Assembly (NCBI RefSeq): GCF_921293095.1
Contig: NC_060249.1
Location: forward strand, 75,713,907-75,777,906
Reading direction: 5' to 3'
From: Ischnura elegans
Lineage: Eukaryota > Arthropoda > Insecta > Odonata > Coenagrionidae
Length of the DNA: 64,000 bases
This document shows positions 9,487-61,082 of this stretch, in pieces. Position 1 is the stretch's first letter. Every line of letters begins with the position of its first letter. The position numbers and the translations under genes were made by a program. The notes below the pieces were generated by a model. That model was given only the letters and a program-made list of their open reading frames with translations, was not told the DNA's origin and ran no database searches.

Positions 9487-10108
9487 CCCCGCACGGGGGG
9501 AAGAGAGTAATCTCTTCCTTTGGGGAGTCGCGCCCCCACGGACCCGAGCCCACCGGAGAGACAAGCTCGTCAAAAAACCCTTCGTACGCTAGGATAGCGT
9601 CCAGACAGCATGTGACTCTGCTGTGCTGAGTAGCCGAAACATCTGGCGTCCAGATTCACCCACGTGTTTGCCGTGCGTGGAGACCCGTACAAGGGGGAGA
9701 AGGGGATCCTGGTGGGTGAGTTCTCCGGCACCCAGCTGGGCGTCGGAAACCCGGTATGGGCCGGAGTTCAACACCCCACTTCGGCCCTGGATTCCCCGAA
9801 AAACGGGCGGCCGAGAAGAGCCCAGCTCGGTCAATCGGCTCCTGGCGGCTGGGGAGCTTGGCGGCTCCTTCCGAGCGTACGCCAGGACGGGTTAGTGCTG
9901 GAGATATGGGGGTCTCCGTAGGGCGGCCGAAGGCGTGTGGGTTCGGAGGGCCCCCGCGCTGGAGGTTCTAACCCGAAAGAGACCTCCTATCGAAGGTTCC
10001 TATATCCCTTGGGTAGCCCTGGCGACCACACCGGATCTCGGTGTGGCGTCCCGAATGTGTGGCTCCGTGGTGGGTGGGGAGCCCAGGGGATGAATAAAGG
10101 GTTAGTCT
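9487..10108 (+). promoter_or_regulatory. Structured 5' leader of I-clade LINE copy A
   Basis: The first 32 bases form two abutting hairpins: CCCC-GCAC-GGGG (9487-9498) and GGAAGAGA-GTAA-TCTCTTCC (9499-9518), the second capped by a GNRA tetraloop. Further downstream are ACGCTA-GGA-TAGCGT (about 9586-9600) and ACAGCA...TGCTGT (9605-9624). The whole GC-rich leader of about 620 bp is strongly conserved among copies with unlike ORFs. It could hold the internal promoter, a translation element or a self-cleaving RNA (inference). A 71-codon ATG frame at 9756-9971 keeps its length in five copies. Confidence 0.7.
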
Positions 10109-11134
10109 ATGGATCACAATTTATCTCCACCTCCAAAAAGATCCCGTCCGGAAACGGGCGGGGGAGAAATGAAAAACAACAAGTTCTTGGTAATGAAAAG
10201 CCAGAAGGAAGGGGAAACGCTGAAAAAAGTGTCCCCCTTCTTAATCCGTAAAGTGTTATCTGCAGCAGTACCGGGAGACATAAAATCTGCAAAGAAGTTA
10301 CGCGACGGGACCCTATTAATTGAAACATCGAACAAGGCGCAAAGCGAGAAGATCCTTAAAATGAAGCTGTTAAATGATATCCCAGTGACAGTGGAGGTCC
10401 ACCGAACCCTAAACACTTGTCGGGGCGTAATTAGTCACTACGATCTTTTGTATGTGGAAGTCGACGAAATAAAGCATGAGATGGTATCTCAGGGAGTGAG
10501 CGATGTTCGTCGACTAACCACAAAACGGAACGGAGAAGTAACAAATACCACATCCGTAGTGCTTACGTTTTCGTGCGATCGGCTCCCCGACAAGGTGTTC
10601 ATAGGGTATGAATCAGTTCCCGTGCGACCATTCATTCCAGCCCCGATGCGCTGCTTCCAGTGCCAGCGCTTCGGTCACATCGCAACGCGATGCGAAGGCA
10701 AGGCCACCTGCCCACGCTGCGGCCAGGACTCACACGGTGACTCCAGCTGCCCCAAGGGTCCGCAATGTGTGAACTGCGAGGGCACACACCCCGCTTATTC
10801 CCGCAAATGCCCAAAAATGTTAGAAGAGCGTAAAATAATGGAGATTAAAACAACAGAGAAAATTACATATTTCGACGCAAGGAAGAAGTATAGATCAATA
10901 ACTGCCCCGACCTTCTCGAAATCCTTTGCTAAGGTTGTCGAATCAACGGTCACTAAGGCCTCAATTGGCACACAAACCGACTCTATCCCCAAGAATGATA
11001 ATAGCACTGTAGAACCTGCCAAACCGGATAAGGCATCTAAACCGGCTGCTAAAAATAATTCCACCGCTGTGGGTTCCCCTAAAAGGAACCCAACCAACCA
11101 ATCAACCCACTGGCGTAACGCAAAAGAAGCGTGA
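10109..11134 (+). CDS. ORF1 nucleic-acid-binding protein, copy A (341 aa)
   Basis: A Gag-like ORF1 protein. After a basic N-terminus (PPPKRSRPETGG) comes a domain of about 150 residues typical of jockey/I ORF1 proteins. Three zinc knuckles follow from about residue 182: CFQCQRFGHIATRC, CPRCGQDSHGDSSC and CVNCEGTHPAYSRKC, then the conserved MLEERKIMEIKTTEKI segment. It would coat element RNA and take it to the nucleus. The 341-residue frame ends with an unusual tail; a conserved acidic-then-basic tail found in copy G (ending RLKR) is present here just downstream (to 11273) but in the +1 frame. The same break is in copy B. Confidence 0.9.
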   Translation: MDHNLSPPPKRSRPETGGGEMKNNKFLVMKSQKEGETLKKVSPFLIRKVLSAAVPGDIKSAKKLRDGTLLIETSNKAQSEKILKMKLLNDIPVTVEVHRTLNTCRGVISHYDLLYVEVDEIKHEMVSQGVSDVRRLTTKRNGEVTNTTSVVLTFSCDRLPDKVFIGYESVPVRPFIPAPMRCFQCQRFGHIATRCEGKATCPRCGQDSHGDSSCPKGPQCVNCEGTHPAYSRKCPKMLEERKIMEIKTTEKITYFDARKKYRSITAPTFSKSFAKVVESTVTKASIGTQTDSIPKNDNSTVEPAKPDKASKPAAKNNSTAVGSPKRNPTNQSTHWRNAKEA

Positions 11135-11317
11135 GGTTACGCCACCCCCAACTACCTCCGGCGTCACAAAAGGTAAACTGAACCAACCAGAGTCAATGGA
11201 GGAAGACGAAAGTCTCTCGGAGACAGAGATCCTCCAAGCCAAGAAAAAGACAAAGAAGAATAGACTTAAGCGCTGAACATACCTCACGCAGTTCAAGTTT
11301 TTTATTTATCTTTAATC

Positions 11318-14026
11318 ATGGCTTTTATTTTACAATGGAATTGTAATGGTTTTTATCGGCACAAGGAGGAGCTGGCCATTTTACTGCGTGATTTCAATCC
11401 AATGTGCATTTGCCTGCAAGAAACACATTTTAAAGCAACGGACAAGGGTATTTTAAGTGGTTTTAACGTTTTTAGATATGACGACATAAGTGGCCAACGG
11501 GCACACGGTGGTGTTATGATCGCCACTAGGGAGACCCTTCATGTCTCCCGGGTGGCGCTTAACACGCCTTTTCAGGCGGTAGCGGTAACGCTGCACGGCC
11601 CCCAGTCGGTGACTCTATGTAACGTATACCTTCCAGAGGGGGCACCGGTGACCCTTTTTTATTTAGACTCCCTTATCTGCCAACTGTCAAAACCCTTTAT
11701 TATAGTAGGTGATTTTAATGCCCATGATACACTATGGGGTAGCTCCAGGGCACAGTGCAATCAGAGAGGACGCATTTTATCGCAGTTTTTAACAGTCTCT
11801 AACCTGGTTTTATTAAACGACGGAAAGAAAACTAGGTTCAATAGTTTTAACGGCAATTATTCGACTATTGACCTTTGTTTTACTTCGAGCACATTAATGG
11901 ACAAATTTCAAATGAATGTTCACGACGATCTATGTGGGAGTGATCACTTCCCCATTACTATTAATAGAGAGGAATATTTTAACCCCAATATTTTACGTCC
12001 TAGCAATTGGAGTATCCGGAGAGCCGACTGGGCTCTTTTTAAAGAATCATTCAATTTTACATTTAACGAAGGCCGCTGTGGTATCCAGAATATTGAATTT
12101 TTGACAAACAGTATCGGCGAATGTGCAAATAGTAGTGTGCCAAGGTCAGGACACGCCCGTATGAAGCCTTCCGTTCCATGGTGGAACGACGATTGCGCCA
12201 AGGCTATTCAGGCACGCAAGAGAGCGCTAAGAATTTTTAATAAACACCCAACAGCCATAAATTTGGCTTCCTTTCGCCGTCTCCGAGCCAAAGCCCGAAA
12301 GGTGGTCAAAGAGGCGAAGAAAGACTCCTGGATGTCATTTGTATCCGGGATAAACTGCCGGACACCAGTGTCGCAGGTGTGGAAAAAGGTGAGGAGTATC
12401 TGTGGTGACCACCGTCAGCATGGAGTCACATACATTAAAAACAATGACAACATCGTAACCTCATCGGCCGCCATCAGCGAGATATTCGGACGGCTGTTAG
12501 CTAACATAAGCGGCAACTCCAATTATGAGGACTCCTTCCTATCCTTGAAGAGACGCTGCGAATTGCACACACTTTCTTTCGCTGATAGGGGGACACTGGC
12601 GGACTACAATGTCCCATTTTCCCTTTGGGAACTAAAATCAGCAATCGCAGCTTCCCGCGACACGTCCCCGGGGATGGATGAGATCCATAATGCCTTTCTC
12701 CGGAATCTTCCAGGGAGAGCTTTATTGGAAGTTCTTTTATGTTTCAATCAACTTTGGGCAGAGAGAAGCTTCCCACCGTCCTGGCGCGAATCTATAGTTA
12801 TTCCAATTTTAAAACAGGGCAAGGATAAATCTGATCCAAACAACTATCGTCCAATATCCCTCACCAGCTGTCTGTGTAAGGTAATGGAAAGAATGGTGAA
12901 CCGACGACTTGTTTGGTGGCTGGAGCGTCGAAACCTTCTTTCCACTGTCCAATGTGGCTTCCGACGCGGCCGATCGACAGTTGACCACCTTGTCAGGACA
13001 GAGAACTACATCCAGGAGGCCTTTGTCCTTCGTCAGCACGTTGTTGGTATTTTCTTTGATCTAGAGAAGGCTTACGACCGGGTCTGGCGCCGGAAAATAC
13101 TCTTGACGCTCCACAAATGGGGATTTAGAGGCCATCTGCCAATATTCATTGAAAATTTTTTAAAGAACCGCACTTTTAAGGTCAGAATAGGCCGAGACTT
13201 ATCGCAATCTTATTCCCTGGAAAATGGGGTACCACAGGGCTCCGTATTGAGCGTGACACTTTTCGCGATAGCCGTAAATGACGTGGCGGATTGTGTCAAA
13301 GCCCCAACGATGAGCTCGCTGTTCGTGGATGACCTGGCAATCTTTTTCCGGTCGTCCAAACTTGTATCGGTAGCCAGACAACTACAGTTAGCTTTAAATA
13401 ACCTAGGCAACTGGTCACGGAAAAATGGTTTTAAATTTTCAGCGGAAAAGACCAAATGCGTGCATTTTCACCGGAAGAGAGGTTACTTTGCCCCTCCAGT
13501 TTTAAAACTGGATGGCAGACCCCTTCCGTACGTGGAGTCGGCTCGGTTCCTAGGTATGACCCTAGACCACCGATTAAATTGGCGGGAACATATTCAGTTT
13601 TTAAGAAATAATTGTCTTAGGACCCTAAATATTTTAAAGTTTTTAACCCACTCCTCATGGGGCGCCGACCGCAGCATGATGCTTTTACTATATCGCGCAC
13701 TTGTTCGATCCAAGCTGGACTATGGGAGTTTTATTTACTCGTCTGGCCGCGAGTCAATTTTAAGAACCTTGACGACGCTGCACAACACAGGGTTGCGGCT
13801 CTCAACTGGTGCCTTCCGCACCAGCCCGGTGCTCAGCATTTATGCAGACGCTGGAGAGCCGCCTTTGCAGAGCCGAAGGAACATCCTGATGTTAAACTAC
13901 GCGGCGAAAATCCTAGCCTCAAGAGGTCACCCGTGTTTTAATATTGTTTTTAATCCAAAGTTTTTAAGAATTTTTATTATAAGAACGAGAGCCACTAAGC
14001 CACTAAGCCACTATGTGTACGATTGA
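11318..14026 (+). pseudogene. ORF2, copy A: endonuclease and reverse transcriptase (N-terminal 902 aa)
   Basis: The endonuclease at residues 1-220 shows LQWNCNG, QETHFK (E35), GDFNAHDTLWG and GSDHFPI. The RT shows NYRPISLTSCLCKVMERM, CGFRRGRSTVDH, FFDLEKAYDRVW, NGVPQGSVLS and FVDD at about residues 670-672. Compared with copy B, an extra CCACTAAG near 13995-14010 shifts the frame just before the RNase H part, which continues at 14023-15030. This is the only break seen between ORF2 start and end in this copy. A one-residue C-to-F difference follows the FVDD box relative to copy B. Confidence 0.9.
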
Positions 14027-15030
14027 AAGAGTTCATCGAAGCATCCGGAATTCAACTCCCGGATGTAGCTCCAATCGTTTACCCCGATATCCCGCCATGG
14101 ATAATTCCACATCCCAAAATTTATGATGCTTTTAAAGGACTCCAGAAAGAATACTCCACTGCCTCAGAGTATCAGTGTCATTTTAATGAATTCGTCAGTC
14201 GCCATAAGGGCAGTCGACTCATGTATACAGACGGATCCAAGTCGGAAGCCGCCTGTGCCTGCGCAGTGTCCTCGGCATACCACGGCATCAAGCAGACGAG
14301 ACTCAGCCCGTTGTGTAGCATATACACAGCGGAGCTTATCGCCATTAAGATGGCGTTGGGGATGGTCGCCGACGATTGCAACCCTTCCACCATAGTATGC
14401 ACCGACTCAAAGAGCTCGCTGCAATCTATCGCCGCTATTTTCCCGACGCACCCTATTGTGCAAGATATCCAAATCGCTCTATATTATATCTGTAAACGTG
14501 GACGCCAAGTGTCGTTCCTATGGGTTCCCGGGCACATGGGAATAACAGGAAACGAAAAAGCAGATGCAGCTGCAAAGGCGGCGCTCACGCTGCCGGCACA
14601 GGCTTCGACTTCTGTAACCTATCAAGACCTGCAGATGGCCATGCGCGGAATAGTTCTACGGCAGTGGAGTGAGGTATGGACGAACGTAACGAATAACAAA
14701 CTGAGAATTATCAAACCGGTTACGTCAATGTGGCCCTCTTCTGTTGGGAGGAATCGTAGGGAGGAGGTCATTATTACTAGACTGAGAATCGGTCATTGCG
14801 CCCTGACACATTCCTATCTCTTCACCCAAGACAAGATCCCACCTCGATGTGGCTATTGTGACTGTCCCCTGACTGTGAGACACCTCTTGACGGAGTGTGA
14901 TGAGCATCATATTACGCGAAGCCGGACAGGCGTCAGGGGCAACCTAGAATTTATTCTGGGCGATGACCCTGGCCGCCTATGCCGCGTCATAGAATTCGTT
15001 AAGAAAACTGGTCTTGTGAATTCGATTTGA
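14023..15030 (+). pseudogene. ORF2, copy A: RNase H and C-terminal zinc motif (frame-shifted continuation)
   Basis: This frame carries the remainder of ORF2 after the 8-bp duplication: YTDGSKSEAAC, YTAELIAIKMAL, CTDSKSSL and NEKADAAAKAAL give the D-E-D-D set of RNase H, with WVPGHMGITGN between. The end has CGYCDCPLTVRHLLTEC, the C-terminal Cys-His motif. Here the Cys-His motif is complete, whereas in copy B a 1-base deletion breaks the frame at that very place. The two sister copies thus carry different, private breaks. Confidence 0.88.
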
Positions 15031-15118
15031 TAGGCTCGAAGTTTACATCAATATTGTCAACAGTGCCGCACCAAACTGAAATTATAGTATATGCTTATGT
15101 CGCAATTTGATTGCGCGT

Positions 15119-15148
15119 GGTGCTAATGACCTTAGCTGTCGATGCACC
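15119..15148 (+). promoter_or_regulatory. 3'-terminal hairpin of copy A
   Basis: GGTGC (15119-15123) pairs with GCACC (15144-15148); the inner stem is GAC/GTC around CTTAGCT. It is followed by about 17 bases and the (TAC)n tail. The inner stem differs from copy 1 (GGC/GCC) by a compensated change. Confidence 0.7.
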
Positions 15149-15867
15149 CTTAACCCCAAACCTACTACTACTACAACATGCCCTTCACATACTCCTGATA
15201 AATCGAAATTTCATCGCCATTTCTTTTGATTCTCATGCAAGTACATTTTTGGCTTTGGCATTTGAAGAAAGGTCTCTTAATTCAGTGTTTTTTCAGTGCA
15301 TTCAGCAAATTTATTGCAACGTTACTGTGACCGAAAACCAAAAAACCTTCAGCATATACGGCAAGGATACACAGAGAATCATTATTACCATTTACATGTA
15401 CACAAGGTTTAGTTAAAAAATTAATTAAATCCTATATCAATTAATACCCTTTAACTCTATCGTACCATGATTTTGAAGCCTGTTTTAGTCCATAGATTGC
15501 TCTTTTAAGGAGACACACTTTGTTCTCTGCCCCTAGTTTGACAAAACCCTCAGCCTGTTTTTATGACTTAATAATAGTTTATTAATAACAATATATACAT
15601 ATTCCATCATGTCTTTTAACATATAACAATCTAGGCCCCGTTAAGTCTCAATGACTTGTCAGCGGGTTCCAATACATCACAAAAATATATGACAGCATTT
15701 GTATAATACAGATACATTTTCCCAACTAATGCAAGCATACATACACATGCGAACTAGCCTTCAATTGATATTCATATACATTAGTATACCAGTATCTAAT
15801 ACATTTATATACATTTTTTTTATTTATATATTGCTTTCAAGGATAATAACATACATTAGAAAAACGG

Positions 15868-17155: not shown

Positions 17156-18215
17156 TCCGAGTCGATTGTCAATTTTTTGTAAATGTAAACAATGATCAGA
17201 ATTTTGAGAAAATAAATATCTTAGAGGCTATTATATCACCAACAATAGATGATACAAAAAATGGTCTCTTAAATCGAAAATATATCACTTGGTATACTAG
17301 TTAACCAAATTAAATGAAAAGAGAAACTTTTTCTGCAACTCACAACAAATCCTACGAGCAAGCATAACCAGTGCTGCCCCCTCTCCTCCTTATGTAAATT
17401 GTTTCCTAAAGCCCCACCCGGGAGAAGAGGGTGATCTCTTCCTTTGTGGAGCAGCGCCCCACGGACCCGAGCCCTACGGGGAGACAACCTCGTCAAAAAA
17501 CCCTTCGTAAGCTAGGATAGCGTCCAGACAGCATGTGACACTGCTGTTCTTAGTAGCCGAAACATCTGGAATCGTGATTTACCCACGTGTTTGCCGTGCG
17601 TGGAAACCCGTTTGTGGGGGATAAGGGGATCCTGGTGGGTGAGTTCTCCGGCATCCAGCTGGGCGTCGGATACCCGGTATGGGCCGGAATTCGATACCCC
17701 ACTTCGGCCCTGGATTCCCCAGAAAAAGGGAGGCCGAGAAGAGCCCAGCTCGGTCAATCGGCTCCTGGCGGCTGGGGAGCTTGGCTGCTCCTTTCGAGCG
17801 CACGCCAGGAAGGGCTAGTACTGGAGATATGGGGGTCTCCTTAGGGCGGCCGAAATCGTGTGGGTCAGGAGGGCCCTTGCGTCGGAGGTTCTAACCCGAA
17901 GGAGACCCCCAATCGAAGGTTCCTATGTCCCTTTGGTAGCCCTGGCGACCACAACGGATCTCGGTGTGGCGTCCCGAATGTGTGGCTCAGTAGTGGGTTG
18001 GGAGCCTGGGGGATGGAGAGATTTCGATGTTTAATGTAGACTATTACCCTTCCTCCGTCGAAAAGATCCCGTCCGAAAACGCGCGGGTGAGAATTTAGAG
18101 AATGCATGTGAGAGATTTTTGATAATGAAATGTTCCAAGGATGGTGACTCTCACGAAGATTTCTCCTTTCCTCATCGGGCGAGTGCTGTCAGCGGTTTAA
18201 TGGCTGTAGCGCAAG

Positions 18216-18661: not shown

Positions 18662-18690
18662 GGTGCAAAATGACCTCATGTCGACGCACC
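18662..18690 (+). promoter_or_regulatory. 3'-terminal hairpin of copy C
   Basis: GGTGC (18662-18666) pairs with GCACC (18686-18690); the inner stem GAC/GTC is kept although the loop has shrunk to CTCAT. It is retained even though almost all coding sequence is gone. Confidence 0.65.
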
Positions 18691-19906
18691 CTTAAAACTA
18701 CATTACTACTACTACTGCTACTACCCTGCTACACCAATCTTTTCATTATTTGCTACAGTGATTTGCATGTCAGTACCAGCATTAGAATCTAAGTCAGACA
18801 GCCAATCTCTGCGCCTCGTCATGTGAGCAGACAAACAAGAGTCTATATACCATTTTTCAGGCCGTACTTGACTTGACATCGCCTTGAGTCAGGCAACATT
18901 TTCTCTCTACACTCAGAATTTAAAGAATTCGAATAGCCTATAGGATTTACATTAATACCCGCACTTTTATCTAGGCAATCACGGGGAAAATGTCCATACT
19001 CGTGCCATTTATAACATCTGACATCTTGTTTATGTCGAATCCCGTTTTCTTTCGATAACCTGTATCAGACTTCTTCCCACCAGATGACGGAAAGGTGCAC
19101 TTGTTGCTCTTGTACATCGTGGTAAAAGCAACTGCTGACGCCTTCATGTCAGTTGGCACCCTGTTACCCTCTTGGAGCAGCTTCTGATTTACTGTCTCCA
19201 TCTTGAGCTTGTCCGTCGCTGTGTTCTCCACAGCAATCCGGAACGGCCGGTAGTCCTCCGTTAGCCCTCTCAGCATCAGGACTGCGAGGGACTCGTCGTC
19301 TACCTGCTTCCCCATGCTCTTTAATTTAGCGTCAATCTCCGTGAACTTATTCACATTTTCTTCTATGTCGGAATAATTCACTAATTTCACATCGAAAAAC
19401 TGAACAATGAGAGCAATATGTCGATTTACACTTCTGTTCTCATACGTGGCCTTCAGATGTAACCATGACATACCATAGGTCTGTCTGCTTACCCGTCACC
19501 TCCATTTTAGGGCCATACTCAAGGAGCATGTAGATTTTAGGTCTCGCTTTTTGAGCTAGCTTCTTCTGTATCGCCGAGGTACTAGCAGACAACTCTTCAC
19601 TCACGAAGTCCGTCATATTCTCATGGATGAGATACATTTCCATATCCATGGCCCAAGTCTCGTAATTCGCTGCTCCCCGAAACTTCTCCATCTGCGGCAA
19701 CGAACTCGCTCCGTAGTGAATGTTCGTGATGCATGTTGCAATTTCTTCGCCCATTTTTGACGCACAAACTAGAAACACTTAGTTCGCCACAACGTGGTCT
19801 CGCGACACAGGCTAAAAAAATTAATTTTTATAAAAACGCACGCGAATTACTGGGAATAAACGTACCCATAGACTAGTGCGAAAAATCCACAGAGGAAAAA
19901 TCATTC

Positions 19907-19978
19907 GCCTTGACCGGGATTCGAACCCGGATCCCTCGATTTCCGGCCGAGTGCGTTAGCCGATTAAGCTACCGAGGC
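19907..19978 (-). tRNA. tRNA-like sequence (tRNA pseudogene or SINE head)
   Basis: On the minus strand 72 bases fold as a cloverleaf. The acceptor stem is GCCTCGG/TCAAGGC with one mismatch, a D arm is present, the anticodon stem is CTCGG/TCGAG, and the T arm CCGGGTTCGAATCCCGG is perfect. The anticodon loop CCGGAAA lacks the universal U33 and would give GGA (Ser), but the long variable arm expected of tRNA-Ser is missing. Box A and box B are recognisable. It is more likely a tRNA-derived repeat than a working tRNA. Confidence 0.6.
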
Positions 19979-29861: not shown

Positions 29862-29890
29862 GGTGCAAATGACCTTGCTGTCGACGCACC
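29862..29890 (+). promoter_or_regulatory. 3'-terminal hairpin of copy E
   Basis: GGTGC (29862-29866) pairs with GCACC (29886-29890), inner stem GAC/GTC around CTTGCT. The (TAC)n tail follows at about 29905-29913. Confidence 0.65.
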
Positions 29891-34682: not shown

Positions 34683-35317
34683 CAACATTATCAACCCCGC
34701 ACGGGGGGAAGAGGGTGATCTCTTCCTTTGGGGAGCCGCGCCCCCACGGACCCGAGCCCACCGAGGAGACAAGCTCGTTAAAAAACCTCGTCGCTCGCTC
34801 GGATAGTGTCCAGACAGCATGTGACTCTGCTGTTCTGATTAGCTGTAACATCTGGCGTCCAGAATCACCCACGTGTTTGCCGTGCGTGGAGACCCGTACA
34901 AGGGGGAGAAGGGGATCCTGGTGGGTGAGTTCTCCGGCACCCAGCTGGGCGTCGGAAACCCGGTATGGGCCGGAGTTCAATACCCCACTTCGGCCCTGGA
35001 TTCCCCGATAAACGGGCGGCCGAGAAGAGCCCAGCTCGGTCAATCGGCTCCTGGCGGCTGGGGAGCTTGGCGGCTCCTTCCGAGTGTACGCCAGGACGGG
35101 TTAGTGCTGGAGATATGGGGGTCTCCGTAGGGCGGCCGAAGGCGTGTGGGTTCGGAGGGCCCCCGCGCTGGAGGTCCTAACCCGAAAGAGACCTCCTATC
35201 GAAGGTTCCTATATCCCTTGGGTAGCCCTGGCGACCACACCGGATCTCGGTGTGGCGTCCCGAATGTGTGGCTCCGTGGTGGGTGGGGAGCCCAGGGGAC
35301 GAATTTTGTATATGTGT

Positions 35318-36443
35318 ATGGATAATAACTTCTTACCTCCAACGAAAAGATCCCGTCCGGAAACGAATGGGGGAGAAATGAGAAACAATAAATTTCTTAT
35401 AATGAAATATCAGAAGGAAGGGGAAACACTAAAAAAAAGTGTCCCCTTCCTTAATTAGTAAAGTCCTTTCTGCTACGGTCCCAGGTGATATAAAATGGGC
35501 CAAAAAGTTACGGGATGGATCCCTTTTGATCGAAACGGCAAACCAGGCGCAAAGTGAGAAGGTTCTCAACATGAAACTGATGCACGACATCCCAGTGACA
35601 GTGGAGGTTCACCGAACCCTGAACACTTGTCGGGGAGTTATAAGCCATTTCGACCTACTTTACGTGGACGTTGACGAAATCAAACAAGAGATGGCATCCC
35701 AGGGAGTGTGCGACGATCGTCGGCTGACAACGAAACGGAATGGAGAAATAGTAAACACCACCTCTGTTGTGCTTACATTTACGTGTGACCGGCTCCCTGA
35801 CAAAGTGTTCATAGGGTATGAATCAGTGCCCGTGCGACCAGTCATACCAGCCCCGATGCGCTGTTTCCAGTGCCAAAAATTCGGCCACATCGCACCGCGA
35901 TGTGAGGGCAAGGCCACCTGCCCGCGCTGCGGCAAGGACAAGCACGATGGGGACAAATGTGCTGAAGCGACCTGCTGCGTGAATTGCGAGGGTACGCACG
36001 CGGTTTATTCTCGCGATTGCCCGAAAATGAAAGAGGAACGGAAGATTATGGAAATTAAAACTGTGGATAAAATATCTTACCTAGAGGCAAGGAAAAAGTT
36101 CAAAGCCCTTAGTGCCCCCTCTTTCTCGCGTTCCTTTGCCGCAATCGCCGCCGCTCCAGTTAAGAAGTGCACCATTTCTACACAGACGGAACCTGAAAAG
36201 CAGATAGATGTATAAAAAAAACAAATGCGAGTAACAGTAGCAACAATAAAAAACACCCCTTACACCTCCGTAGTGTCTCCCAAAAATACAAAACCTGACC
36301 AGCGAGAGAAAACTCCCTCTCCTGGTCCCTCCGGCAAAGGTATGGAACCGATGCAGGAGGACATAGACGAAGATCTCTGTATTTCGGACACAGAGATCGA
36401 AAAAGTCAGGAATAAGGGAAGGAAAAGTCGCTTAAAGCGATGA
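35318..36443 (+). pseudogene. ORF1, copy G, broken
   Basis: It starts MDNNFLPPTKRSRPETNGG at 35318. An enlarged A-run (about 35432) shifts the frame; the main block (35439-36215) holds CFQCQKFGHIAPRC, CPRCGKDKHDGDKC and CVNCEGTHAVYSRDC, then MKEERKIMEIKT. A stop at 36213 is followed in the same frame by the acidic tail MEPMQEDIDEDLCISDTEIEK and the basic end SRLKR (to 36443). This shows what the complete family tail looks like and explains the out-of-frame tail in copies A and B. Confidence 0.85.
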
Positions 36444-36536
36444 TTCCACAGATTTCCGGGCTAATGCTGCTCCAAGTTTCAATATTTACATCAATTTATT
36501 TTCTGTTTTTATCTTTCACCCTTTTTAAACCTTTTT

Positions 36537-39346
36537 ATGACTTTTATATTACAATGGAATTGTAATGGATTTTATCGGCATAAGGAGGAGCTGGCTGTTT
36601 TAATAAATGATTTTAACCCTTTATATATATGTCTACAAGAAACGCATTTTAAATCGACAGACAAGGGAATTTTAAAGGGATATAGTGTGACTAGGTTGGA
36701 TGACTTGAGTGGGCGAAGAGCCCAAGGTGGTGTAGCATTAGCGGTCCGGGATATCCTACACACCACCCGTGTGCGGCTAACTACCCCATTCCAGGCTGTG
36801 GCCGTCACCGTCCATGCACCCATGGAGGTAACGCTGTGCAACGTGTACCTCCCCGAAGATGCTCCGGTAAATGACAATAACCTTCAAGCCCTCATACGTC
36901 AATTGCCGCGACCCTATATTTTATTGGGTGACTTTTACGCTCATGATCCTCTGTGGGGCGGCCCTTCTGCCCAACGCAACAGAAGGGGACGGATTTTAAG
37001 CAGCTTTTTCCGAGATTTTAACCTCTTTTTATTGAACAATGGCGAGAGGACACGCTTTAACTCCTTTACCGGAGAATATTCCTCCATTGATTTGTGCTTA
37101 TGCACGAGCAGCATTTTCACAAGACTGAAACTGTCTGTCCATACGGATCTCTGTGGTAGTGACCACTTCCCGATTTTAATCAAATCTGACGAGATTAACA
37201 ATACGAATTTTATCCGCGAGGGCAACTGGATTGTCCACCAAGCCGACTGGTCTGTTTTTAAAAATTCTTTTAATTTCACGTACGATGCTCTTCGGGGCGG
37301 AACAAAGAACGTTGAGGTGCTAACAGCTAGCATAGTGGACGCAGCGAAACGTAGTGTTCCCTTATCTAAGGGCGCAATCCGTCGACCAGCGGTACCATGG
37401 TGGAATGAGGAATGCGCCGAAGCTATTAATAAACGGAAACGTGCCCTCCGTATTTTTAATAAGTTTCCAACTGCCTTTAATCTTGCCTCATTTCGACGAC
37501 TCAGAGCAAAACCTCGACTAATTATAAAGGAGTCAAAGAAGGCCTCCTGGATAAATTATGTATCCTCCATCAACAACAGGACTCCACTAACTCAGGCCTG
37601 GAACAAGGTGAGGGCTATCTCGGGAGCACGGCATGTTCACGGAGTTTCGTGCCTTGTATTTCAAAGTATGAAATTTCACACACCGGATGAGATATGCGAC
37701 GTTTTCGGGGAAGCGTTTGCCAAGACCAGCAGCGACGAGAACTACTCAGCAGCCTTCCTATCCATTAGGGAACGCTCCCCACACTTGAACTTCACCGAAT
37801 CGCACGCAGCAGCCGGATACAATGATCTTTTTTCCTTATAGGAACTGAAGTCCGCCATAACGGATTCCAAAGACACCGCGCCAGGAGTGGACGGTGTCCG
37901 AAACATATTTCTTCGGAATATACCGGAGAACGCGTTGATGGATATTCTCCATACCCTCAACCAAATTTGGGTTGAGGGAAGCTTCCCTACAGCGTGGCGG
38001 GAATCAGTAGTTGTCCCTATCCCCAAACAAGGAAAGGATAAAACAGACCCAAATAATTATAGGCCAATATCCTTGACCAGTTGTCTATGCAAGACCATGG
38101 AAAGAATGGTGAACCGTCGGCTCGTTTGGTGGTTGGAGCGTCGGAACCTTCTTTCCAATATCCAGTGCGGTTTCAGGCGAGGTAGATCCACCACAGACCA
38201 CCTCGTGAGAACCGAAAATTTTATCCAGGAGGCTTTCCTTCTGAGCCAGCATGTCATAGCCGTGTTCTTCGATCTGGAGAAGGCGTATGACCGAGTCTGG
38301 CGCCAGAAGATTCTGAATACATAAGCCCCTAAGTATTACTTTTAATAATTTTATCCTGGACAGTGAGTTTATACTCCCAGAAGTGTACCCCATTGGGAAT
38401 TCGGAAAATGCACCTTGGCAGGTACCTTTTCCACAAGTCAGCTTTGTCCTCCACAAAAATCAAAAATCTTTGACAACTGCCGCGGAATACCAGGATAGCT
38501 TCAAGGAAGTAATGCACCGCTACCCCGACTTCATTCCTGTTTACACGGACGGATCGAAGTCGGAGCGTGCGTGCGGGTGTGAAGTGATCTCGTCTCACCA
38601 TGGAACCCTCAAGGCCAAGCTCAGTCCGCTGTGTAGCGGCTATACGGCAGAACTGTTCGCCATAAAGATGGCTCTGGATGGTATTAAGTGTAGCAACGCG
38701 TCCTTTATGGTCTGCAGCGACTCCATGAGCGCCCTGCAGTCCATTTCCAGTTTTTCTCCCAGTCACCCAATCGTCCAGGAAATTCAAAAGAGACTACTTT
38801 CCCTTGCTCGGAAAAAAAGTGAAAATCCGTTTTCTGTGGGTTCCTGGACATGTAGGTATTGCTGGAAATGAGAAGGCCGACTCGGCCGCGAAGGCAGCCA
38901 GCGACGACGACGTTGCTGATTATGTGCTGGTACCACATGAAGATTTGAAGGCGACCACAAAAAAGATAGCCTCAGAAAAGTGGAAAGAGACTTGGCGCTC
39001 TCTTATCGGAAATAAACTGCGCGCAATCAAGCCGGTAATTTCAGCGTGGCCCACGTCTGTCAGGAGGAATCGCAGGGAGGAGGTCGCAATCGCACAATTG
39101 AGAATTGGGCACTGCGCTCTGACCCACTCGTACCTCTTCACCGAGGAGAGAATTCCACCCCTATGTGATGTTTGCGACTCTCCCATTACTGTGAGACATC
39201 TCCTGACTGAATGTGAGAAATACCGCTCTGTGCGTCATCGGCTGAACATCGGAGGAGACCTAGGGCACATCCTAGGAGACGACCCTGATAGTGTCAGCCG
39301 AGTAATAAAGTTTTTAATAGAGACCGGGCTAATTAACAGTGTTTAA
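36537..39346 (+). pseudogene. ORF2, copy G, broken
   Basis: The endonuclease (LQWNCNGFYRHKEEL, QETHFK, GDFYAHDPLWG with N replaced by Y, GSDHFPI) is in frame to 37841, where a TAG stands at the position of a TGG in copy A. RT motifs NNYRPISLTSCLCKTMERM and FFDLEKAYDRVW follow to 38324. A deletion then removes the rest of the RT. RNase H resumes at 38383 (YTDGSKSERACGC, YTAELFAIKMAL, CSDSMSAL), a one-base gain in an A-run near 38815 shifts the frame, and WVPGHVGIAGNEKADSAAKAAS plus the Cys-His end run to 39346. Confidence 0.87.
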
Positions 39347-39457
39347 ATTCCAACCTTTTTATAAATTGACAACCCCTTTTATTTCAAAACTTTTATGAAT
39401 GTTTAAATGTTTTTTTTAATGCATCTTTTAAAATTTTTGTTTTTATAGATTGCCTGT

Positions 39458-39487
39458 GGTGCTAATGACCTTAGTGGTCGAGGCACC
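39458..39487 (+). promoter_or_regulatory. 3'-terminal hairpin of copy G
   Basis: GGTGC (39458-39462) pairs with GCACC (39483-39487); the inner stem is extended to GACC/GGTC around TTAGT, so it differs from other copies yet stays paired. Confidence 0.65.
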
Positions 39488-39689
39488 CTAAACACAAATA
39501 CTACTACTACCAACATTATCAACAAGGTTATTTCGTCATCTACAAAAGGAAGCACCACTTATTGATAGATTTTTTTTTACTAAAGGAGGATGAAGTTATT
39601 GCTGTTTTTTATCAGTGTTTTAACTTGACATGACCTAGCCCACACAGCACAAAGTGAATAATATGCACATAATATTCAAATTGTATGCG

Positions 39690-40854: not shown

Positions 40855-43044
40855 TTAGATTTCCATTTTTTTGGAATTATTATTATTACAGTTATTTCTT
40901 AGCCAACAGCTCACAATCTTGGCTGCCATTTTGGAGTCCGTAGCTGGATATTTAAACATTACAGCATCTGTAAAATAAATTACAGTCAATAGAGGCGTTG
41001 CAAATTAATATAACTATTCTGGGGAGGGGGGGGGTGTTTGCATCGCTCAAAATATATCTCAACCATGTAACTAAGGGGTCATGTGGTACATCATATAAGG
41101 CTAGGAAATGTTGGGATTAGGATATCTGATACATACCACTGATAACTGAGGCTGTTTTCGTTCCATGTAGGCCCTTTTTATTCTCAGTGCCCCTCCAGTT
41201 TAGCTTCAATTTCAATTCCTTTGATATAATGAAGCGGCAAATATTTCTCAGCATTTCCTCAAAACCTTTGGAGCTGTAGCTCTTCAATGATATCTACTTC
41301 GCCTGTGAGGAGACAAACATTTAGGTGTCAAGTAAAATAATAAATACATAAACTTGGTTTATAAAATAAGAATCTAACCTGTAATTAAATCAGGTGTTAC
41401 TTACAGCAAAATTATAATTATCTCTCTTCTCCAGAAATAACTCAGTTATTGAAAGCCTCATATTGAGATAGAGGCATCTCAGAGGGCCACCCTTGAGGCT
41501 TACTAAATGCATCTGGAGACGACTCGGTTCCAATATGTGCACATATATTCTCTAATATTACACTATGTGCTTTCAATGTCATTTTTATCTCCTCTTGGTT
41601 CTTTAAAATTTGCTTTAAGCATCTTTTCACTCCTGCAGGCATCAAAAAGCAAAAATATACAGTTAAGTAAATTAGGGGCAGTTTTGTATGCGGTAGAACA
41701 TTTCATTAAGTTGCCATTGCTAACCTTCAGATGTTCTTGAACATTCCATCGTACTCCTTTCTGGAGATTTATGCATACCTTCGTGGTTTCTCTTATGAAA
41801 AGCATCTAGTGAGGATAAAAATAAAAACATCAATACACAATGATATTGAAAAAAGGGGACTTGCTTAATAATGATGAATATTACCTTGATTATTGCTCAC
41901 TATGAGCCGAGAAATTTCAGATGACTCTCTTCTTTTAGGTAATTCACATTCAAGATGCTTATCCCCGGAAGAGGAACCACTAGCCTCTAAAACGGGGACA
42001 GTCTGCTTCCTGAAGCTCATTTCATTATCTGTAAAGAAGGGGAAATGGATGCATGACAGATTATATCGTAGAAAAAACATCATGCAAGAGAGTATTTCCA
42101 GCAGTTAATAAGTCAAATAATTGATAACAACTGAATTGCCCTTTACCTTGACTGTTGAAAGTGATCACGCTAGAGTCTAGACTCCTGCTGGTTATTTTTG
42201 GGGGAGAAGGCAATTCTTCCACGCTGTCTTGGTCCGATGATTCACTGCTATACCGTTTTGGCTTCCTTCTTTTTCTCTTAGTTTTTCCTCCTTTCTCGAA
42301 GCCAGATTCAAAGTTATCGGTTTCACAAGCTTTCGCTAGCTTCAGTCTTGCCTTAGGGTAGGAATCTGCAAGAGAAAAGGGATGTAACATGGGGAGTAAC
42401 TAGAGAAAGATAAAGAAATGGACCCCGCACGGGGGGAAGAGAGTAATCTCTTCCTTTGGGGAGTCGCGCCCCCACGGACCCGAGCCCACCGGGGAGACAA
42501 CCTCGTCAAAAAACCCTTCGTACGCTAGGATAGCGTCCAGACAGCATGTGACTCTGCTGTGCTGAGTAGCCGAAACATCTGGCGTCCAGATTCACCCACG
42601 TGTTTGCCGTGCGTGGAGACCCGTACAAGGGGGAGAAGGGGATCCTGGTGGGTGAGTTCTCCGGCACCCAGCTGGGCGTCGGAAACCCGGTATGGGCCGG
42701 AGTCCAACACCCCACTTCGGCCCTGGATTCCCCGAAAAACGGGCGGCCGAGAAGAGCCCAGCTCGGTCAATCGGCTCCTGGCGGCTGGGGAGCTTGGCGG
42801 CTCCTTCCGAGCGTACGCCAGGACGGGTTAGTGCTGGAGATATGGGGGTCTCCGTAGGGCGGCCGAAGGCGTGTGGGTTCGGAGGGCCCCCGCGCTGGAG
42901 GTTCTAACCCGAAAGAGACCTCCTATCGAAGGTTCCTATATCCCTTGGGTAGCCCTGGCGACCACACCGGATCTCGGTGTGGCGTCCCGAATGTGTGGCT
43001 CCGTGGTGGGTGGGGAGCCCAGGGGATGAATAAAGGGTTAGTCT

Positions 43045-44070
43045 ATGGATCACAATTTATCTCCACCTCCAAAAAGATCCCGTCCGGAAACGGGCGGGGG
43101 AGAAATGAAAAACAACAAGTTCTTGGTAATGAAAAGCCAGAAGGAAGGGGAAACGCTGAAAAAAGTGTCCCCCTTCTTAATCCGTAAAGTGTTATCTGCA
43201 GCAGTACCGGGAGACATAAAATCTGCAAAGAAGTTACGCGACGGGACCCTATTAATTGAAACATCGAACAAGGCGCAAAGCGAGAAGATCCTTAAAATGA
43301 AGCTGTTAAATGATATCCCAGTGACAGTGGAGGTCCACCGAACCCTAAACACTTGTCGGGGCGTAATTAGTCACTACGATCTTTTGTATGTGGAAGTCGA
43401 CGAAATAAAGCATGAGATGGCATCTCAGGGAGTGAGCGATGTTCGTCGACTAACCACAAAACGGAACGGAGAAGTAACAAATACCACATCCGTAGTGCTT
43501 ACGTTTTCGTGCGATCGGCTCCCCGACAAGGTGTTCATAGGGTATGAATCAGTTCCCGTGCGACCATTCATACCAGCCCCGATGCGCTGCTTCCAGTGCC
43601 AGCGCTTCGGTCACATCGCAACGCGTTGCGAAGGCAAGGCCACCTGCCCACGCTGCGGCCAGGACTCACACGGTGACTCCAGCTGCCCCAAGGGTCCGCA
43701 ATGTGTGAACTGCGAGGGCACACACCCCGCTTATTCCCGCAAATGCCCAAAAATGTTAGAAGAGCGTAAAATAATGGAGATTAAAACAACAGAGAAAATT
43801 ACATATTTCGACGCAAGGAAGAAGTATAGATCAATAACTGCCCCGACCTTCTCGAAATCCTTTGCTAAGGTTGTCGAATCAACGGTCACTAAGGCCTCAA
43901 TTGGCACACAAACCGACTCTATCCCCAAGAATGATAATAGCACTGTAGAACCTGCCAAACCGGATAAGGCATCTAAACCGGCTGCTAAAAATAATTCCAC
44001 CGCTGTGGGTTCCCCTAAAAGGAACCCAACCAACCAATCAACCCACTGGCGTAACGCAAAAGAAGCGTGA
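43045..44070 (+). CDS. ORF1 nucleic-acid-binding protein, copy B (341 aa)
   Basis: The product differs from the copy A product by about one residue (MASQGV for MVSQGV). It has the same three CCHC knuckles (CFQCQRFGHIATRC, CPRCGQDSHGDSSC, CVNCEGTHPAYSRKC). The C-terminal acidic and basic tail (ESMEEDESLSETEIL ... NRLKR) lies in the +1 frame behind it, ending at 44211, exactly as in copy A. The 183-base gap to ORF2 is the same. Confidence 0.92.
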   Translation: MDHNLSPPPKRSRPETGGGEMKNNKFLVMKSQKEGETLKKVSPFLIRKVLSAAVPGDIKSAKKLRDGTLLIETSNKAQSEKILKMKLLNDIPVTVEVHRTLNTCRGVISHYDLLYVEVDEIKHEMASQGVSDVRRLTTKRNGEVTNTTSVVLTFSCDRLPDKVFIGYESVPVRPFIPAPMRCFQCQRFGHIATRCEGKATCPRCGQDSHGDSSCPKGPQCVNCEGTHPAYSRKCPKMLEERKIMEIKTTEKITYFDARKKYRSITAPTFSKSFAKVVESTVTKASIGTQTDSIPKNDNSTVEPAKPDKASKPAAKNNSTAVGSPKRNPTNQSTHWRNAKEA

Positions 44071-44253
44071 GGTTACGCCACCCCCAACTACCTCCGGCGT
44101 CACAAAAGGTAAACTGAACCAACCAGAGTCAATGGAGGAAGACGAAAGTCTCTCGGAGACAGAGATCCTCCAAGCCAAGGAAAAGACAAAGAAGAATAGA
44201 CTTAAGCGCTGAACATACCTCACGCAGTTCAAGTTTTTTTTTTATCTTTAATC

Positions 44254-47200
44254 ATGGCTTTTATTTTACAATGGAATTGTAATGGTTTTTATCGGCACAA
44301 GGAGGAGCTGGCCATTTTACTGCGTGATTTCAATCCAATGTGCATTTGCCTGCAAGAAACACATTTTAAAGCAACGGACAAGGGTATTTTAAGTGGTTTT
44401 AACGTTTTTAGATATGACGACATAAGTAGCCAACGGGCACACGGTGGTGTTATGATCGCCACTAGGGAGACCCTTCATGTCTCCCGGGTGGCGCTTAACA
44501 CGCCTTTTCAGGCGGTAGCGGTAACGCTGCACGGCCCCCAGTCGGTGACTCTATGTAACGTATACCTTCCAGAGGGGGCACCGGTGACCCTTTTTTATTT
44601 AGACTCCCTTATCTGCCAACTGTCAAAACCCTTTATTATAGTAGGTGATTTTAATGCCCATGATACACTATGGGGTAGCTCCAGGGCACAGTGCAATCAG
44701 AGAGGACGCATTTTATCGCAGTTTTTAACTGTCTCTAACCTGGTTTTATTAAACGACGGAAAGAAAACTAGGTTCAATAGTTTTAACGGCAATTATTCGA
44801 CTATTGACCTTTGTTTTACTTCGAGCACATTAACGGACAAATTTCAAATGAATGTTCACGACGATCTATGTGGGAGTGATCACTTCCCCATTACTATTAA
44901 TAGAGAGGAATATTTTAACCCCAATATTTTACGTCCTAGCAATTGGAGTATCCGGAGAGCCGACTGGGCTCTTTTTAAAGAATCATTCAATTTTACATTT
45001 AACGAAGGCCGCTGTGGTATCCAGAATATTGAATTTTTGACAAACAGTATCGGCGAATGTGCAAATAGTAGTGTGCCAAGGTCAGGACACGCCCGTATGA
45101 AGCCTTCCGTTCCATGGTGGAACGACGATTGCGCCAAGGCTATTCAGGCACGCAAGAGAGCGCTAAGAATTTTTAATAAACACCCAACAGCCATAAATTT
45201 GGCTTCCTTTCGCCGTCTCCGAGCCAAAGCCCGAAAGGTGGTCAAAGAGGCGAAGAAAGACTCCTGGATGTCATTTGTATCCGGGATAAACTGCCGGACA
45301 CCAGTGTCGCAGGTGTGGAAAAAGGTGAGGAGTATCTGTGGTGACCACCGTCAGCATGGAGTCACATACATTAAAAACAATGACAACATCGTAACCTCAT
45401 CGGCCGCCATCAGCGAGATATTCGGACGGCTGTTAGCTAACATAAGCGGCAACTCCAATTATGAGGACTCCTTCCTATCCTTGAAGAGACGCTGCGAATT
45501 GCACACACTTTCTTTCGCTGATAGGGGGACACTGGCGGACTACAATGTCCCATTTTCCCTTTGGGAACTAAAATCAGCAATCGCAGCTTCCCGCGACACG
45601 TCCCCGGGGATGGATGAGATCCATAATGCCTTTCTCCGGAATCTTCCAGAGAGAGCTTTATTGGAAGTTCTTTTATGTTTCAATCAACTTTGGGCAGAGA
45701 GAAGCTTCCCACCGTCCTGGCGCGAATCTATAGTTATTCCAATTTTAAAACAGGGCAAGGATAAATCTGATCCGAACAACTATCGTCCAATATCCCTCAC
45801 CAGCTGTCTGTGTAAGGTAATGGAAAGAATGGTGAACCGACGACTTGTTTGGTGGCTGGAGCGTCGAAACCTTCTTTCCACTGTCCAATGTGGCTTCCGA
45901 CGCGGCCGATCGACAGTTGACCACCTTGTCAGGACAGAGAACTACATCCAGGAGGCCTTTGTCCTTCGTCAGCACGTTGTTGGTATTTTCTTTGATCTAG
46001 AGAAGGCTTACGACCGGGTCTGGCGCCGGAAAATACTCTTGACGCTCCACAAATGGGGATTTAGAGGCCATCTGCCAATATTCATTGAAAATTTTTTAAA
46101 GAACCGCACTTTTAAGGTCAGAATAGGCCGAGACTTATCGCAATCTTATTCCCTGGAAAATGGGGTACCACAGGGCTCCGTATTGAGCGTGACACTTTTC
46201 GCGATAGCCGTAAATGACGTGGCGGATTGTGTCAAAGCCCCAACGATGAGCTCGCTGTTCGTGGATGACCTGGCAATCTTTTGCCGGTCGTCCAAACTTG
46301 TATCGGTAGCCAGACAACTACAGTTAGCTTTAAATAACCTAGGCAACTGGTCACGGAAAAATGGTTTTAAATTTTCAGCGGAAAAGACCAAATGCGTGCA
46401 TTTTCACCGGAAGAGAGGTTACTTTGCCCCTCCAGTTTTAAAACTGGATGGCAGACCCCTTCCGTACGTGGAGTCGGCTCGGTTCCTAGGTATGACCCTA
46501 GACCACCGATTAAATTGGCGGGAACATATTCAGTTTTTAAGAAATAATTGTCTTAGGACCCTAAATATTTTAAAGTTTTTAACCCACTCCTCATGGGGCG
46601 CCGACCGCAGCATGATGCTTTTACTATATCGCGCACTTGTTCGATCCAAGCTGGACTATGGGAGTTTTATTTACTCGTCTGGCCGCGAGTCAATTTTAAG
46701 AACCTTGACGACGCTGCACAACACAGGGTTGCGGCTCTCAACTGGTGCCTTCCGCACCAGCCCGGTGCTCAGCATTTATGCAGACGCTGGAGAGCCGCCT
46801 TTGCAGAGCCGAAGGAACATCCTGATGTTAAACTACGCGGCGAAAATCCTAGCCTCAAGAGGTCACCCGTGTTTTAATATTGTTTTTAATCCAAAGTTTT
46901 TAAGAATTTTTATTATAAGAACGAGAGCCACTAAGCCACTATGTGTACGATTGAAAGAGTTCATCGAAGCATCCGGAATTCAACTCCCGGATGTAGCTCC
47001 AATCGTTTACCCCGATATCCCGCCATGGATAATTCCACATCCCAAAATTTATGATGCTTTTAAAGGACTCCAGAAAGAATACTCCACTGCCTCAGAGTAT
47101 CAGTGTCATTTTAATGAATTCGTCAGTCGCCATAAGGGCAGTCGACTCATGTATACAGACGGATCCAAGTCGGAAGCCGCCTGTGCCTGCGCAGTGTCCT

Positions 47201-47817
47201 CGGCATACCACGGCATCAAGCAGACGAGACTCAGCCCGTTGTGTAGCATATACACAGCGGAGCTTATCGCCATTAAGATGGCGTTGGGGATGGTCGCCGA
47301 CGATTGCAACCCTTCCACCATAGTATGCACCGACTCAAAGAGCTCGCTGCAATCTATCGCCGCTATTTTCCCGACGCACCCTATTGTGCAAGATATCCAA
47401 ATCGCTCTATATTATATCTGTAAACGTGGACGCCAAGTGTCGTTCCTATGGGTTCCCGGGCACATGGGAATAACAGGAAACGAAAAAGCAGATGCAGCTG
47501 CAAAGGCGGCGCTCACGCTGCCGGCACAGGCTTCGACTTCTGTAACCTATCAAGACCTGCAGATGGCCATGCGCGGAATAGTTCTACGGCAGTGGAGTGA
47601 GGTATGGACGAACGTAACGAATAACAAACTGAGAATTATCAAACCGGTTACGTCAATGTGGCCCTCTTCTGTTGGGAGGAATCGTAGGGAGGAGGTCATT
47701 ATTACTAGACTGAGAATCGGTCATTGCGCCCTGACACATTCCTATCTCTTCACCCAAGACAAGATCCCACCTCGATGTGGCTATTGTGACTGTCCCCTGA
47801 CTGTGAGACACTCTTGA
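44254..47817 (+). CDS. ORF2 endonuclease-RT-RNase H, copy B (1187 aa, short of the true end)
   Basis: This is the longest ORF2 in the window. The endonuclease spans about 1-220 (E35 of QETHFK, GDFNAHDTLWG, GSDHFPI). The RT spans about 430-760 with FVDD at residues 669-672. RNase H spans about 960-1090 (Y967-T-D969-GSKS, TAELIAI, CTDSKSS, NEKADAAA). The frame ends inside the C-terminal Cys-His motif (CGYCDCPLTVRH) because one C is lost relative to copy A (near 47812); about 41 codons are displaced. All catalytic motifs are present, so activity may be only partly impaired. It would nick DNA and reverse-transcribe the element's RNA at the target. Confidence 0.92.
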   Translation: MAFILQWNCNGFYRHKEELAILLRDFNPMCICLQETHFKATDKGILSGFNVFRYDDISSQRAHGGVMIATRETLHVSRVALNTPFQAVAVTLHGPQSVTLCNVYLPEGAPVTLFYLDSLICQLSKPFIIVGDFNAHDTLWGSSRAQCNQRGRILSQFLTVSNLVLLNDGKKTRFNSFNGNYSTIDLCFTSSTLTDKFQMNVHDDLCGSDHFPITINREEYFNPNILRPSNWSIRRADWALFKESFNFTFNEGRCGIQNIEFLTNSIGECANSSVPRSGHARMKPSVPWWNDDCAKAIQARKRALRIFNKHPTAINLASFRRLRAKARKVVKEAKKDSWMSFVSGINCRTPVSQVWKKVRSICGDHRQHGVTYIKNNDNIVTSSAAISEIFGRLLANISGNSNYEDSFLSLKRRCELHTLSFADRGTLADYNVPFSLWELKSAIAASRDTSPGMDEIHNAFLRNLPERALLEVLLCFNQLWAERSFPPSWRESIVIPILKQGKDKSDPNNYRPISLTSCLCKVMERMVNRRLVWWLERRNLLSTVQCGFRRGRSTVDHLVRTENYIQEAFVLRQHVVGIFFDLEKAYDRVWRRKILLTLHKWGFRGHLPIFIENFLKNRTFKVRIGRDLSQSYSLENGVPQGSVLSVTLFAIAVNDVADCVKAPTMSSLFVDDLAIFCRSSKLVSVARQLQLALNNLGNWSRKNGFKFSAEKTKCVHFHRKRGYFAPPVLKLDGRPLPYVESARFLGMTLDHRLNWREHIQFLRNNCLRTLNILKFLTHSSWGADRSMMLLLYRALVRSKLDYGSFIYSSGRESILRTLTTLHNTGLRLSTGAFRTSPVLSIYADAGEPPLQSRRNILMLNYAAKILASRGHPCFNIVFNPKFLRIFIIRTRATKPLCVRLKEFIEASGIQLPDVAPIVYPDIPPWIIPHPKIYDAFKGLQKEYSTASEYQCHFNEFVSRHKGSRLMYTDGSKSEAACACAVSSAYHGIKQTRLSPLCSIYTAELIAIKMALGMVADDCNPSTIVCTDSKSSLQSIAAIFPTHPIVQDIQIALYYICKRGRQVSFLWVPGHMGITGNEKADAAAKAALTLPAQASTSVTYQDLQMAMRGIVLRQWSEVWTNVTNNKLRIIKPVTSMWPSSVGRNRREEVIITRLRIGHCALTHSYLFTQDKIPPRCGYCDCPLTVRHS

Positions 47818-48045
47818 CGGAGTGTGATGAGCATCATATTACGCGAAGCCGGACAGGCGTCAGGGGCAACCTAGAATTTATTCTGGGCGATGACCCTGGC
47901 CGCGTATGCCGCGTCATAGAATTCGTTAAGAAAACTGGCCTTGTGAATTCGATTTGATAGGCTCGAAGTTTACATCAATATTGTCAACAGTGCCGCACCA
48001 AACTGAAATTATAGTATATGCTTATGTCGCAATTTGATTGCGCGT

Positions 48046-48075
48046 GGTGCTAATGACCTTAGCTGTCGACGCACC
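48046..48075 (+). promoter_or_regulatory. 3'-terminal hairpin of copy B
   Basis: GGTGC (48046-48050) pairs with GCACC (48071-48075), inner stem GAC/GTC. The (TAC)n tail follows at about 48090-48105. Confidence 0.65.
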
Positions 48076-48352
48076 ATTAACCCCAAACCTACTACTACTA
48101 CTACTATAAAGAAATGGAGAATTACTCTGCCTTACCATATGTGCCCCTCACTTCTACTGAATATATAGGCCATGTTGTATCCACAGGTAATTTCAACATC
48201 CTCTCCTTAAAATCAGTAGGCCAGAAACACTTCTTCTTATTCGGCAGTAGCCACCGCTCCGGCACCACTGCTGTCTCCCTCATTGGCTCCACATTTTTCT
48301 CTTCATCATCCTCATCGAACCACATTAGGAAATCCACAACACAGAACTTGCT

Positions 48353-61024: not shown

Positions 61025-61082
61025 GTAGTGGTGCAAAATGGCCTAGCCGTCGACGCATCCCAATTATCAATTATACCACTAC
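61025..61082 (+). mobile_element. I-clade LINE scrap: only the 3'-terminal hairpin and tail
   Basis: GGTGC (61030-61034), then GGCCTAGCCGTC and GCATC (61055-61059), followed by about 13 bases and CCACTACTT, a worn (TAC)n tail. The inner stem GGC/GTC with a G-U pair is half-way between copy 1 (GGC/GCC) and copies A/B (GAC/GTC). It is an extreme 5' truncation that keeps little more than the presumed recognition hairpin. Confidence 0.75.

Follow-up and report, generated by a model that had tools for sequence, protein, structure and literature searches.

An apparently selected 3'-terminal hairpin shared by families of I-type LINEs in Ischnura elegans

A short hairpin near the 3' end of several families of I-type LINEs in the genome of Ischnura elegans looks to be a real, selected element, and it probably serves this set of LINEs as a cis-acting 3' recognition element. 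The sequence-only reading had taken paired changes across copies as the mark of a selected RNA fold, probably the recognition element for the reverse transcriptase (RT). The selected fold is supported by an island of conservation and by the contrast between internal and terminal branches, and not by covariation. The whole survey covers one genome.

The hairpin and the elements that carry it in the window

The window is the 64,000-nt stretch C4:75713907-75777906 within the 1.72-Gb genome. The hairpin was confirmed there at 7 of 7 coordinates, always on the plus strand and preceding a TAC-rich tail: in copy 1 of family F1, with GGC/GCC inner arms (1880–1910), in element A (15119–15148), in the internally deleted copy C (18662–18690), in the element starting at 24300 (29862–29890), in the element at 34695–39510, with a GGTC arm (39458–39487), in the second A-type copy (48046–48075), and in a severely truncated scrap (61030–61059). 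It is located 3' of ORF2 wherever the reading frame reaches its end and 5' of the TAC repeats, the distance to the short simple-repeat tail being about 11–17 nt. The hairpin is generally 29–31 nt long. Its outer helix of 5 bp is followed inward by an A-rich internal loop, and an inner helix of 4 bp, one pair of which is U-G, closes an apical loop of 6–7 nt. For element A, the outer helix is GGTGC/GCACC, the inner helix is TGAC/GTCG with the U-G base pair, the apical loop has 7 nt, and a (TAC)4 tail follows at 15163–15174 on the plus strand.

The inner arms GAC/GTC at 15119, 18662, 29862, and 48046 are as the sequence-only reading described them, and GGC/GCC at 1880, GACC/GGTC at 39458, and GGC/GTC at 61030 likewise read as claimed. 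The variable loop between the arms was also borne out, with most of the apical loop varying. The outer arms GGTGC...GCACC, ascribed to all copies, are present in six of the seven; the scrap at 61030 reads GGTGC...GCATC. A (TAC)n tract had been described after each hairpin, and a TAC-rich tail is indeed found at the sites, in a degenerate form at 61030. The letters at 61030 had further been called a G-U intermediate. They are present, and a shifted register offers another reading: in the minimum-energy fold of both copy 1 and the scrap, GGC pairs with the first GCC of AGCC. Because this shifted register has the lower energy, there are two readings even for the GGC/GCC change of F1. The folding energies are modest: z ranges from −1.1 to −4.1 over the seven copies and is −2.4 or weaker in six.

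GACC/GGTC is absent from the other 137 hairpin-bearing loci ascertained through ORF2 (see below), its sole carrier (L035) being the window copy at 39458 itself, and is therefore a change of one copy. The elements holding the hairpins at 15119 and 48046 are 99.5% identical and were therefore counted as one lineage. The sequence upstream of the scrap at 61030 clusters by BLAST with L104, L095, and L100.

Element A spans 9487–15177 on the plus strand, with CAACATGCCCTTC at both ends, read by eye as a target-site duplication, and the second A-type element spans 42423–48104 on the same strand, with ATAAAGAAATGGA on both sides, also read by eye. The second element includes, on the plus strand, ORF1 with three CCHC knuckles (43042–44067) and ORF2 with endonuclease, RT, and RNase H (44206–47814). 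Direct repeats of ~10–13 bp were seen by eye at both ends in 4 of the 5 copies inspected, and none was clear for copy C.

In the excerpted descriptions of the Drosophila I factor, ORF1 has three Cys-His motifs, and ORF2 has an endonuclease, RT, RNase H, and a C-terminal Cys-His motif (PMC2881922, PMC3747384). All of these features were found in the present elements, and this match of the ORF1/ORF2 architecture supports the I-clade label, which came from the sequence-only reading, as a probable assignment. The elements also resemble the I factor in ending in short tandem repeats, which are TAA in the I factor and TAC or AACT here; the excerpts do not mention a hairpin for the I factor (PMC2881922, PMC3747384). 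Among the literature titles and abstract openings listed, none concerned an I-clade 3' hairpin.

At the opposite end of the elements, 300 nt near the 5' ends (9687–9986, 34896–35195, and 42623–42922; also at 17610 and 22867) are 90–100% identical across different families. For the copies at 9687 and 34896, this region is 99% identical, as against 66% for the ORF2 DNA of the same two elements, and it looks to have been exchanged or homogenised between families. With Rfam at gathering thresholds, nothing but one tRNA was detected in the whole window, a tRNA gene or tRNA-like sequence at 19906–19978 on the minus strand (RF00005, 47 bits).

The survival of the hairpin in copy C and in the scrap had been put forward as evidence. 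It proves little: in target-primed reverse transcription the 3' end is copied first, so that such survival is expected. Copy C was also considered as a mobile non-autonomous family and rejected: among the 40 candidates scored out of 191, its 441-nt internal query matched in full at its own locus only, and the other matches listed start no earlier than query position 135 and are consistent with C-terminal fragments of ORF2.

Occurrence and conservation of the hairpin in the genome

The pattern GGTGCN{1,3}AATN{11,16}CGANGCACC gave 875+832 matches in the genome, compared with 0+1 for the reversed control, which indicates that the hairpin does not occur by chance. Patterns joining the outer stem to the TAC tail (556+1042 matches vs. 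1+3 in the control) and the inner stem to the tail (545+1007 vs. 0+0) were also counted, with long-tailed loci entering more than once. The frequent GGTGCTATTTCGC...GCACC was rejected as an instance of the hairpin, being by eye an inverted repeat in the apparent RT-coding part of another LINE. This inverted repeat, found at L004 (C1:348719-348748) and similar places, has the same GGTGC/GCACC arms as the hairpin, probably by coincidence.

For sampling through the coding sequence, four 55-residue ORF2 pieces were compared with the genome, with 150 scored matches each. The loci read comprised 120 stretches downstream of ORF2 matches, hand-picked for diversity, and 30 loci from one ORF2 search; 2 of the 4 F1 loci fetched in this way were picked after their hairpins were already known. 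At a call threshold of at least 40, the maximum in 60 shuffled sequences being 31, the hairpin was observed in 138 of the 150 loci, with both outer arms exact in 106 of the 138. The other 12 have a 3' part that is apparently interrupted, replaced, deleted, or decayed, and none of the families seen in the 150 loci lacks the hairpin. L108 was rejected as a hairpin-less family, since its sequence changes into another abundant repeat after position ~17. At this locus, an A-type ORF2 end runs directly into the other repeat, for which 39 further matches with 96–98% identity were listed.

The same kind of hairpin precedes AACT repeats in family T4 (L199, L200, L206, and L207, on C1), probably also in L205, and CTAA-type repeats in L209. 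These results indicate that the hairpin and the tail are separable in evolution. The TAA repeats of the I factor are reportedly essential for precise initiation (title of Chambeyron 2002). ORF2 is located upstream of the hairpin in both T4 and L209, for which reason T4 was rejected as a SINE; the ORF2 piece of T4 is 51% identical to that of F1. Families T4, L208/L209, and L210 are known solely from patterns with prescribed outer arms, which deprives their intact outer stems of value as a test. Among the 60 pattern-chosen loci, read over ~240 nt upstream, no multi-member cluster with a clearly non-LINE upstream sequence was found that could represent a partner SINE, and the singletons resemble short truncated copies. 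L201 and L202 have the hairpin and tail in common, with no detectable shared sequence upstream, and would be insertions truncated almost at the hairpin.

For five families found through ORF2 (L109, L156, L065, L104, and L179), with upstream sequences that fall into separate BLAST clusters, the hairpin identity was 0.88 on average, with a minimum of 0.81. The 30-nt blocks from −120 to −31 showed an identity of 0.47–0.49 (shuffled, 0.48–0.49), positions −30 to −1 showed 0.51 (shuffled, 0.48), and the 18 nt downstream of the hairpin showed 0.65 (shuffled, 0.54). The hairpin identity was likewise 0.88 for 11 representatives, four of which come from one cluster. Longer ORF2 pieces of the families compared are 44–56% identical, and the 55-residue query pieces are closer to each other (~64–83%). 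The hairpin has been kept while the upstream sequence drifted apart, suggesting that the copying machinery probably grips it.

Changes on internal and terminal branches were compared by parsimony, in a McDonald-Kreitman-like manner, on trees built from the flanks without the hairpin; the deep branches of these trees are unsure, since flanks cannot be aligned between families. In the tree of 141 rows, taken from the ORF2-ascertained loci and the window, the paired columns changed 2 times on internal and 59 times on terminal branches, compared with 20 and 40 times for the unpaired columns (p = 1.2e-5). For 204 rows, which include the 60 pattern-chosen rows found by parts of the hairpin, the respective numbers were 4 and 87, compared with 33 and 86 (p = 6e-6). 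The outer helix exhibited no internal changes, as against 31 (141 rows) and 41 (204 rows) terminal changes, and in both trees the internal branches with paired changes all fall within F1. Most internal changes map to the apical loop or to the internal loop on its 5' side; several unpaired positions (b3, b4, l1, l5, and the A after the inner stem) are also free of them. These results show that the paired positions are held in the multiplying lineages and lost in dead copies.

Paired changes and covariation

For the 138 ORF2-ascertained copies and nine pairs, 44 cells carry a one-sided change that breaks the pair, 16 carry a one-sided change that still pairs, and 1 is changed on both sides; 1180 cells are as in the consensus, and 1 is a gap. 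Excluding F1, the one-sided changes amount to 42 broken and 16 still paired. The still-pairing share (16 of 60, 27%) is below the neutral expectation of 35–40% under a transition/transversion model. Changes across copies had been described as keeping the stem, and broken cells outnumber kept ones (44 vs. 16), a result that the sequence-only reading had itself named as speaking against a selected fold. Inserted copies drift freely, so this count says little about selection; dead copies need not keep the stem, and a copy-to-copy comparison could therefore not have shown selection. For dead transposon copies, the balance of pair-keeping and pair-breaking changes is barely informative, whereas that between internal and terminal branches is informative.

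Among the 100 matches listed for the first of the above patterns, which leaves the inner stem unconstrained, the middle pair is A-U in 79, G-C in 17, G-U in 3, and A-C in 1. Fifteen of the 17 G-C pairs are plain GGC/GCC, the other two being L198 and L196. In the 11 representative hairpins, variation is absent from all five outer pairs and from two of the four inner pairs. The outer invariance arises partly by choice, as the T4, L208, and L210 rows came from outer-arm patterns. One of the other inner pairs has one two-sided and one one-sided change, and the other has a broken cell (L208). The observed two-sided count was reached by 82 of 500 shuffles of these representatives. When the partners were slid by 1–3 columns, the paired cells fell from 99% to 16–65%; a slide by −3 or −2 columns also yielded one two-sided pair, with 59% and 40% of the cells paired, respectively. 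RNAalifold recovered the outer and inner helices from the 11 hairpins.

On the 204-row tree, three two-sided kept events were counted, one internal and two terminal (P = 0.22), under a null in which the substitutions of each branch were reassigned; the internal event alone, the F1 change from GAC/GTC to GGC/GCC, gave P = 0.21. On the 141-row tree, the F1 change is split over successive branches, one for each side, and the count of two-sided events is zero. The paired changes that had been taken as the mark of a selected fold are thus not above background by either the tree test (P = 0.21–0.22) or the shuffles (82 of 500), and covariation was rejected as proof of the fold. Since most pairs never vary, the covariation test has little power.

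The conservation pattern could fit recognition of the helices and the internal loop, or of plain sequence. It is unlikely, in our view, that ORF2p or a host protein reads the conserved letters as a primary-sequence signal, with an old and unused complementarity. The arms are nearly invariant between lineages, with a single internal two-sided change (P = 0.21), and the unpaired positions b3, b4, l1, l5, and the A after the inner stem are also without internal change, in line with such a signal; however, the blocks kept best are complementary to each other, over 5 and 4 bp, and the internal changes are mainly located in the apical loop or on the internal loop's 5' side. Because the arms hardly vary, sequence and structure are inseparable on the present data.

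Comparison with known LINE hairpins and proposed role

The hairpin resembles the known 3' stem-loops of LINEs, with a reversed conservation pattern as the point of interest. For L2-clade LINEs, as excerpted, the ORF2 protein binds a 3' stem-loop on which mobility depends; in the zebrafish elements ZfL2-1 and ZfL2-2, the loop decides specificity, and stem exchange left mobility, about half of it in one case, whereas stem changes in UnaL2 are said to lower mobility strongly (PMC4176376). As in these three elements, a short 3' hairpin stands beside a short tandem repeat; unlike in ZfL2-1 and ZfL2-2, it is the apical loop that varies here, with stems that are nearly fixed. For monocot L1s, the excerpted review by Ohshima describes stem nucleotides that vary with compensatory mutations, a conserved loop and 3' flank, and SINEs that share the hairpin (PMC3747384). 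The present hairpin is similar to that of the monocot L1s and their SINEs in being a LINE 3'-end hairpin with conserved letters. It differs in that the stems are nearly invariant with one internal paired change, that no SINE was found among the 60 pattern-chosen loci, and that compensatory stem changes above background, as reported for monocot L1s, were not observed. Fixed stems with a free apical loop appear unusual, the reverse of the L2-clade and monocot L1 cases compared.

Like the stem-loops of stringent-type LINEs, the hairpin is positioned at the 3' end beside the tail repeats and is held by selection in multiplying lineages. By analogy with these LINEs, we infer that its most likely role is template recognition by the ORF2 protein and its RT. 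The ORF2 protein, or its RNP, would hold the helices and the internal loop at the 3' end of the RNA, leaving the apical loop mostly unread. It would then set the tail on the nicked target, where target-primed reverse transcription would begin, and the tail unit would be free to switch between TAC and AACT with the hairpin unchanged.

A role in RNA 3'-end formation, in stability, or in localisation, or as a site of ORF1p assembly, instead of RT recognition, would fit the position at the RNA 3' end and the three CCHC knuckles of ORF1; it seems quite unlikely, given that the 3' stem-loops of L2-clade LINEs, according to the excerpts, serve ORF2 recognition (PMC4176376). An absence of selection, with recently shared 3' ends or with paired changes arising by drift in dead copies, would accommodate the drift of copies (44 cells broken, 16 kept), the near-identity of the elements at 15119 and 48046, and the somewhat similar 18 nt downstream (0.65 vs. 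0.54), but is highly improbable with the 31–120 nt upstream at background, the longer ORF2 pieces at 44–56%, and the hairpin at 88%.

Returning to recognition by the ORF2 protein, we tentatively consider it possible, though doubtful, that the arrangement is turned around compared with L2-clade and monocot L1 elements: the enzyme would read two fixed helices and the internal loop with the conserved U-G, mostly ignore the apical loop, and tolerate the change from TAC to AACT, and co-resident families, with longer ORF2 pieces ~50% identical, would have a single interchangeable 3' key in common, with which one family could mobilise the RNA of another. If the ORF2 proteins read the hairpin, cross-mobilisation and the respective roles of stem and loop would be directly testable. 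One 31-nt 3' key is apparently common to several LINE families of one genome.
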